In this document: positions 59,571-60,690 of the stretch, one piece after another | Layout: each line of letters starts with the position of its first letter | Numbering within the stretch: the stretch's first letter is position 1 | The notes under the pieces: generated by a model | The model's input: only the letters and a program-made list of their open reading frames with translations | The model's database searches: none | What the model was told of the DNA's origin: nothing | Made by a program: the position numbers and the translations under genes | Assembly (NCBI RefSeq): GCF_000016905.1 | Contig: NC_009616.1 | Location: 1,178,001 to 1,242,000, forward strand | Source of the DNA: Thermosipho melanesiensis BI429 | GTDB lineage: Bacteria > Thermotogota > Thermotogae > Thermotogales > Fervidobacteriaceae | Direction of reading: 5' to 3' | DNA length: 64,000 nucleotides

Positions 59571-59596
59571 ACCTGGCTTTAAGCCAGGTTTTTTTT
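59569..59596. terminator. Shared terminator after the Mbs-like operon
   Basis: AACCTGGCT / AGCCAGGTT with a TTA loop is followed by seven T. It also overlaps the stop of the convergent MobA-like gene. Confidence 0.9.
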
Positions 59597-60184
59597 GTAA
59601 TCAATATCTTTGATAATTCTTTTAGTAGTAGATGGTATTTTTTTCAGCAGTTCAGGATGCTTTTTTATTAATTGACTGACACCTTTATCTCCATGCAATT
59701 TTAAAATTTCCTCAAATAACTCTTTGTGTATTAAAGTGGGAAATCCTTTTTTTTCAAAAAAAAATGGAGCAATTATTTTGTTTTTATTATCTGTGTATTC
59801 TAAGATTTTTAAAACGTCTTTTTTTAAAATAAAAGGCATGTCTGCAAGAAAAACTGCCACATAATCAGGAATTACATTTAAACTGAGAATATATTTTATT
59901 GCTGCTTTTAATGATGATGAAATCCCCTCTTTATAGTTTTTATTTTTGATTATTATTACATTTTCAGGTATTTTGAAGTTGTTTTTAATATTTTCCCAAT
60001 TATCATTGACTACCATTATGTTTTGTGTAAAATTTAGAGATAAAACCAGATCCAAAACTACTTGTAACATATTTTTTCCTTTTATATTATGAAGGAATTT
60101 TATGCCTTTATACCTTTTTCCTTCGCCAGCGGCCAAAATTATCGAATATATTTTTTTTCTAGTTCTAGGAGAAATTTTTTCCAT
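59579..60184 (-). CDS. MobA/MocA-like NTP transferase
   Basis: A 201-residue nucleotidyltransferase of the MobA-like group that adds GMP or CMP to molybdopterin in known relatives. The N-terminal IILAAGEGKRYKGIKFLHNIKGKNML is the NTP-binding loop, VAVFLADMPFILKKDVLK the metal-binding aspartate strand, and GDKGVSQLIKKHPELL a usual C-terminal turn. ATG 60184 follows CGGGAGGT and lies inside the end of ogt (46-base overlap). No molybdenum enzyme genes are near, so the substrate is uncertain. Confidence 0.82.
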   Translation of the reverse strand: MEKISPRTRKKIYSIILAAGEGKRYKGIKFLHNIKGKNMLQVVLDLVLSLNFTQNIMVVNDNWENIKNNFKIPENVIIIKNKNYKEGISSSLKAAIKYILSLNVIPDYVAVFLADMPFILKKDVLKILEYTDNKNKIIAPFFFEKKGFPTLIHKELFEEILKLHGDKGVSQLIKKHPELLKKIPSTTKRIIKDIDYKKNLA

Positions 60185-60576
60185 TTTATACCTCCCGAGA
60201 ATCCCCCAATATCGTTTTTTCCTACTACTCTGTGACACGGTATGTAAATTGGTAAAAGGTTTGCTTTCATTGCAAATCCAATGATTCTTGGATTTAAATT
60301 TAAGACCTTTGCAACTTCACCATAAGTCATAGTCTCCCCATATGGAATTTTTCTTACATAATTCCATATTTTTAAAAATACAGGTCCTCCTTTTAATTCA
60401 ACTTCAAAATCGAAAAATTTTCTTTTTCCCTTTAAATATTCTATAATTTGCTTTGTGAAATTGTTTTCTGTTAATTCCTCGTAGGATTTTTCATTACTAA
60501 ATGATATTTTTTTCAGTTTGTTGCTTTCAACGTTTAAAAGGATAGTACCTATGTCAACTATTATTTTGTATGTTAT
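60139..60576 (-). CDS. ogt: Methylated-DNA--protein-cysteine methyltransferase, apparent ATA start
   Basis: A DNA repair alkyltransferase of about 145 residues that takes alkyl groups from O6-alkylguanine onto its own cysteine. The active site is IPCHRVVG near residue 115, preceded by TYGEVAKVLNLNPRIIGFAMKANLL and followed by GGFSGGIKWKKFLLELE. The N-terminal half (TYKIIVDIGTILLNVESNKLKKISF, then GGPVFLKIWNYVRKIPYGET) is intact, but in this frame no ATG, GTG or TTG occurs between the upstream stop at 60631 and codon 83. ATA 60574-60576 with AAAGGGTG 8 bases before is the best start. Confidence 0.82.
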   Translation of the reverse strand: MTYKIIVDIGTILLNVESNKLKKISFSNEKSYEELTENNFTKQIIEYLKGKRKFFDFEVELKGGPVFLKIWNYVRKIPYGETMTYGEVAKVLNLNPRIIGFAMKANLLPIYIPCHRVVGKNDIGGFSGGIKWKKFLLELEKKYIR

Positions 60577-60690
60577 AGTTTCACACCCTTTCTTTTGAAG
60601 GATGAGATTAAAATTCTTGTTATTTATGAGTTATAATTATTTTGTTTTTTATAAATTATATCAAAAATTAAACCCAGAATCGTTAACTTT

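Follow-up and report, generated by a model that had tools for sequence, protein, structure and literature searches.

The ogt gene of Thermosipho melanesiensis BI429 most probably starts with a real, weak ATA codon and is functional, as judged from its sequence and from comparison with related genomes. It was found in a stretch of 64,000 nucleotides (contig NC_009616.1, positions 1,178,001 to 1,242,000), which is called the window here and to which all coordinates refer. The 30S subunit would be positioned by the Shine-Dalgarno (SD) motif AAAGGGTG, the initiator fMet-tRNA would be accepted on AUA with reduced efficiency, and the result would be a low, steady supply of the one-use repair protein Ogt. 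We infer that translation starts at ATA, that the output is low, and that the low dose is the selected benefit; a low output is assumed because near-cognate starts are weak in reporters of other bacteria (S. aureus).

The ogt frame of the window and its start region

The sequence-only reading had described the ogt frame as complete and unbroken, and this description was borne out. The stop-to-stop frame (60139-60630, minus strand) is open across 163 codons, and its translation matches PF01035 (E=2.1e-24, 85.6 bits vs a curated cut-off of 27) and TIGR00589 (86.8 bits vs a cut-off of 46.4). The protein contains the PCHR motif, the Cys of which we take to be the active site of Ogt, and it also matches chains of solved structures of the Ogt/AGT family. 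By Pfam, NCBIfam, and the structure chains it therefore belongs to the same family as known Ogt/AGT proteins; nothing unusual was seen in the protein, and the gene differs in its start codon. The whole-genome search of T. melanesiensis (G000) gave a single ogt match.

The further claim that ATA 60574-60576 is the only start-like codon equipped with an SD motif also held for the ogt start region. Past the upstream stop, no ATG, GTG, or TTG occurs in frame before ATG 60330; this is codon 83 from the ATA and would leave 63 residues. Neither of the two GTG triplets in GGGTGTGA is in the ogt frame, and both lead to stops. The SD motif itself is ordinary, with a duplex energy of -10.3 kcal/mol compared with a median of -11.35 for the called starts of this genome. 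The motif can pair with an upstream CAUCCUU (60584-60604, minus strand) in a weak hairpin. However, 59 of 200 shuffled sequences folded equally well, and an RNA structure hiding the SD was therefore rejected as evidence.

The features of the locus are compiled in Table 1. The promoter scan picked another site (60664-60636, minus strand) rather than the TATAAT, and such sites are no proof of function. The downstream MobA/MocA-like gene shares 46 bases (60139-60184) with the end of ogt, and GGGAGGT is located 5 bases before its ATG.

Table 1. Features at the ogt locus, with window coordinates
Feature	Position	Strand	Basis
ogt coding sequence, ATA to stop, 145 codons + stop	60139..60576	-	sequence and family matches
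Putative ATA start codon, -9 from the conserved Gly (congener starts at -10)	60574..60576	-	sequence, alignment
SD motif AAAGGGTG, duplex energy -10.3 kcal/mol, 7 bases before the ATA	60584..60591	-	sequence, SD scoring
Cys codon of the PCHR motif, codon 114 from the ATA	60235..60237	-	sequence; family match
TATAAT, possible -10 box upstream of ogt	60655..60660	-	sequence only; not evidence of function
MobA/MocA-like nucleotidyltransferase gene, overlaps the ogt 3' end, own ATG and SD	59579..60184	-	sequence, family matches

A sequencing or assembly error could mimic such a start, either with ATG as the true codon or with an indel that conceals an upstream start. One wrong base would be enough, and the window genome is represented by a single assembly. 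However, the genome (1,915,238 bases) is assembled into one contig and is 99.87% complete, no ATG in any frame was found within the 80 bases preceding the ATA, and ATA is also present in five other assemblies of relatives. We regard an error in the window as improbable.

Start codons and constraint of ogt in related genomes

Ogt was present in all 45 genomes of the order Thermotogales that were examined and in 100 of 103 genomes of the phylum, in 90 of the 103 above the curated cut-off. An alignment of 90 ogt frames, one per genome, was used with a conserved Gly as anchor for the start position; 9 loci outside the order, which stemmed from a scan of genome contigs, were left out. Start codons were called by hand: the canonical codon with the strongest SD was chosen, unless a non-canonical codon had a far stronger SD. 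The count covers the order only; outside it, the anchor was unsure in G057 and G045, and the frame of G095 (L097) comprises only 100 codons and lacks the N-terminal half (frameshift, error, or pseudogene).

Many ogt starts of the phylum are located -9 or -10 codons from the anchor. Other places are -13 (genus g3), -14 (g2), and -4 to -6 (g7 and g9 of family f3), and some families outside the order have starts elsewhere. In the order, ATG was found 27 times, GTG 7 times, TTG 4 times, ATA 6 times, and CTG once; this includes G030, in which TTG and ATG are adjacent with near-equal SDs and which was counted as ATG. In another family outside the order, ogt of G061 (L094) has a CTG at -19 after a strong SD, and its relative G062 has a TTG.

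The start codons of close relatives had been proposed as a check between a rare start codon and a gene silenced by a start mutation. The three congeners have canonical starts (ATG in G001 and G002, TTG in G003), all at -10, one codon away from the ATA of the window at -9. A canonical start might thus have been lost recently in the strain or species, so that Ogt is no longer made. A single base change would suffice, and the end branch of the window ogt is somewhat long (0.43 vs 0.23 for G003, in an unresolved fork). One may add the idea that a change of ATG to ATA in ogt would itself be a G to A mutation of the kind that Ogt prevents. Nevertheless, such a loss appears unlikely. Apart from the long open frame and the retention of ogt throughout the order, with one copy found in this genome, the window ogt retains 25/25 columns whose conservation reaches 95% or more among the remaining 44 genomes. 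The substitution rate was also not clearly increased. The dN of the window ogt to five outgroups was compared with that of the three congeners: it fell within their range when measured to G012 and G014, it was the lowest to G007, and it was the highest to G006 and G010, by 0.025 and 0.001, respectively. Codon-position differences and relative rates gave no clear sign of relaxation. Neither relaxed constraint nor frame damage was found for this gene, but a loss that happened very recently would not be visible in such comparisons.

The preferred reading of ATA as a weak but working start is supported by a second clade. In family f3, all five genomes of the genera g12 (G039, G041, G044) and g14 (G042, G043) have an ATA at -10 of ogt, the homologous place, and G023 (g8) has a CTG at this position. 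The SDs before the ATAs have energies of -17.7, -14.2, -15.4, -8.3, and -8.7 kcal/mol (G039, G041, G044, G042, and G043). In G039, a stop immediately precedes the ATA and no canonical codon occurs over 22 codons, and the start zone of G041 is devoid of ATG, GTG, and TTG. G042, G043, and G044 have a GTG inside the SD that could be called as the start, and G042 has a further GTG, without SD, five codons after the ATA. A sequencing error in all five assemblies is very unlikely.

In the ogt tree, the five ATA genomes group with the CTG genome in a single clade (support 98/94) that does not contain the window genome. At least 2 changes between canonical and non-canonical starts are needed to explain this distribution. 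On this tree, non-canonical ogt starts arose at least twice, because the six genomes of g12, g14, and g8 form a clade apart from the window genome. As to whether related species keep the same near-cognate codon, the picture is mixed: it was kept in 5/5 genomes of g12 and g14, all within one clade, and 3/3 congeners in the genus of the window are canonical.

Of the 145 codon columns, 7 show the same codon in all five ATA genes; the ATA column is one of these, whereas the codons differ in the three further columns that encode Ile throughout. Since about 56% of the Ile codons in G039 are ATA, more than any other, the identity of ATA in all five is by itself weak evidence. The pairs G042-G043 (dN/dS 0.088/1.06) and G041-G044 (0.20/1.93), all four with ATA, were informative about selection; several other pairs were saturated at synonymous sites and yielded no dS. 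At the level of these codon comparisons, the values indicate purifying selection on ogt in two pairs of ATA species. Of the two possibilities left by the sequence-only reading, the rare start codon is thus favored by the relatives, and the silent gene is disfavored.

Candidate near-cognate starts of other genes

Control scans for non-canonical starts were performed with gene frames scored by coding hexamers and SD (430 frames in 460 kb of G000, 357 in G039). In both genomes, ogt ranked first for a non-canonical codon outscoring all ATG, GTG, and TTG codons in the first 60% of the frame. The huge margin in G000 is an artefact of this limit, because ATG 60330 falls just beyond it; with the limit at 90%, ogt was second of 430 with a margin of 29.6. 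The top frame at that limit (G000:C1:1357369-1357698) has 109 codons without any ATG, GTG, or TTG and a weaker SD (-5.2).

A refined scan made use of a trained spacing term, a margin of 8, and an SD of -8 or stronger, and ATA, ATT, ATC, and CTG were defined as near-cognate. Near-cognate codons made up 7 of 11 candidates in G000, compared with a codon share of 10.7% (p=3.6e-5), and 5 of 11 in G039, compared with 9.7% (p=2.4e-3); ogt was among them in both cases. These two genomes had been picked because their ogt starts with ATA, the counts are small, and frameshifts or erroneous calls probably account for some of the remaining candidates. With the same scan, no such excess was seen in G033 (2/9, p=0.23) or G072 (1/4, p=0.37). 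The near-cognate excess is therefore shown for two genomes only, rather than for the whole order. An earlier scan without the spacing model had given near-cognate hits at 16 of 12174 codons vs 25 of 60277 others in G039 and at 13 of 11803 vs 24 of 68896 in G000; it was dropped and replaced, because neighbors of one start were counted as separate matches. A 455-codon frame at G000:C1:1126047 has an SD that points to an ATG in the neighboring frame, a possible frameshift.

An altered initiator tRNA was considered as the cause. One tRNA-Met(cat) was detected in 397 kb of G039; it has a GGG/CCC anticodon stem and is presumably the initiator, and an altered initiator was rejected for this genome only. 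No tRNA-Met(cat) was found in 460 kb of G000.

Twelve scan candidates were translated, 9 were searched with NCBIfam, and homologs were compared in 16 genomes. The matches were infC (twice), PelF, and nusB. Scores below the NCBIfam cut-off were obtained for a PhnW-like aminotransferase, for secA (matched by an N-terminal part only), and for a 2Fe-2S subunit of the xanthine dehydrogenase type, and two of the 9 candidates had no NCBIfam match. In 16/16 genomes, infC has an ATC after the SD, in some cases next to an ATT or ATA, and the interval between the SD and the ATC is free of ATG, GTG, and TTG. The nusB gene has an ATA in all six genomes of g12, g14, and g8 (L174-L179) and ATG, GTG, or TTG in the other 10 genomes; at the ATA starts, a GTG within the SD and an ATG nine codons further downstream are also present. 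The essential gene secA has an ATA in G041 (L192) and G044 (L191) and an ATT followed by an ATA in G039 (L190), and thus all three g12 genomes are non-canonical; the other 13 genomes have ATG or GTG, with ATG in the sister genera. Judged from these sequences, secA would be the best positive control for such codons working here. The aminotransferase has ATT-ATT, ATT-ATA, and ATT-ATT without an ATG, GTG, or TTG at the start in G000, G001, and G002 (L257-L259); of the 11 genomes compared, only these 3 contain a close homolog. A further gene, which we take to be psuG, has an ATT in G000 and G003 (L246, L247), and the SD of G003 also contains a GTG; the other 9 of the 11 genomes have a canonical codon close to the start.

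These genes also bear on the meaning of the ogt start. The AUA could be a real start without regulatory meaning, if strong SDs tolerate AUA, AUU, AUC, and CUG and ogt simply drifted there. The near-cognate starts of unrelated genes (infC, secA, nusB, and the psuG-like, aminotransferase, and PelF-like genes) speak for this, as do the strong SD energies reported in an omics study of T. maritima (PMC3636130). However, ATA or CTG was kept throughout the ogt clade of g8, g14, and g12, in which several pairs are saturated at synonymous sites, and near-cognate starts carry an about ten-fold cost in the reporters described in PMC13009471, so that the output should change. Drift is thus a serious possibility within the reading of ATA as a genuine start, somewhat short of an even chance.

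Comparison with known near-cognate starts and implications

The infC and pcnB genes of E. coli, both with an AUU start, resemble ogt in starting with a near-cognate Ile codon, but they are different genes, and autoregulation by IF3 applies to infC and is not known for ogt. PMC1805508 gives AUU as the infC start in E. coli and B. subtilis, and PMC13009471 states that the infC start codon of E. coli serves autoregulation by IF3. According to the latter paper (PMC13009471), Ribo-Ret maps AUA starts for infC, ccpN, and citZ in S. aureus; in poor medium, near-cognate reporters reach about 10% of AUG, and in rich medium ccpN attains up to 30%. These AUA codons follow an SD, and that of ccpN is kept between S. 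aureus and B. subtilis, which is similar to ogt. However, they belong to Firmicutes genes with an extended SD, which is present in the g12 genomes but not in the window ogt; the SD of the latter is ordinary, unlike the strong SDs of G039, G041, and G044. For Listeria, PMC13068326 reports rsbW reporters in the order ATG > ATA > ATT, so that ATA lowers and does not abolish translation, and its authors put rare or flexible starts at <0.3% of core ORFs. The ATA and ATT of rsbW occur in selected mutants and rare strains, whereas the ATA of ogt is fixed across species. ATA and ATT as words had 0 matches in the text of the T. maritima study (PMC3636130). Among the matches listed from open-licence PubMed Central text, which does not comprise subscription journals, none dealt with AUA as the ogt start codon, and none with near-cognate initiation in Thermotogales.

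Taken together, there is about an even chance that AUA, AUU, AUC, and CUG serve some Thermotogales as ordinary start codons in roughly 1 to 2% of the genes, among them secA in one genus, nusB in three, and ogt in two independent cases. Initiation would then be less tied to AUG, GUG, and UUG than annotation assumes, and a set of genes may be under the same IF3-dependent control as infC. Gene finders that accept only ATG, GTG, and TTG would, if AUA is the start of ogt, truncate or miss this gene here and place its start wrongly in relatives. The AUA would also be another weak start codon that evolution has retained, in a protein whose amount determines the number of repairable lesions, and would point to thermophiles with a possibly unusual frequency of near-cognate initiation.
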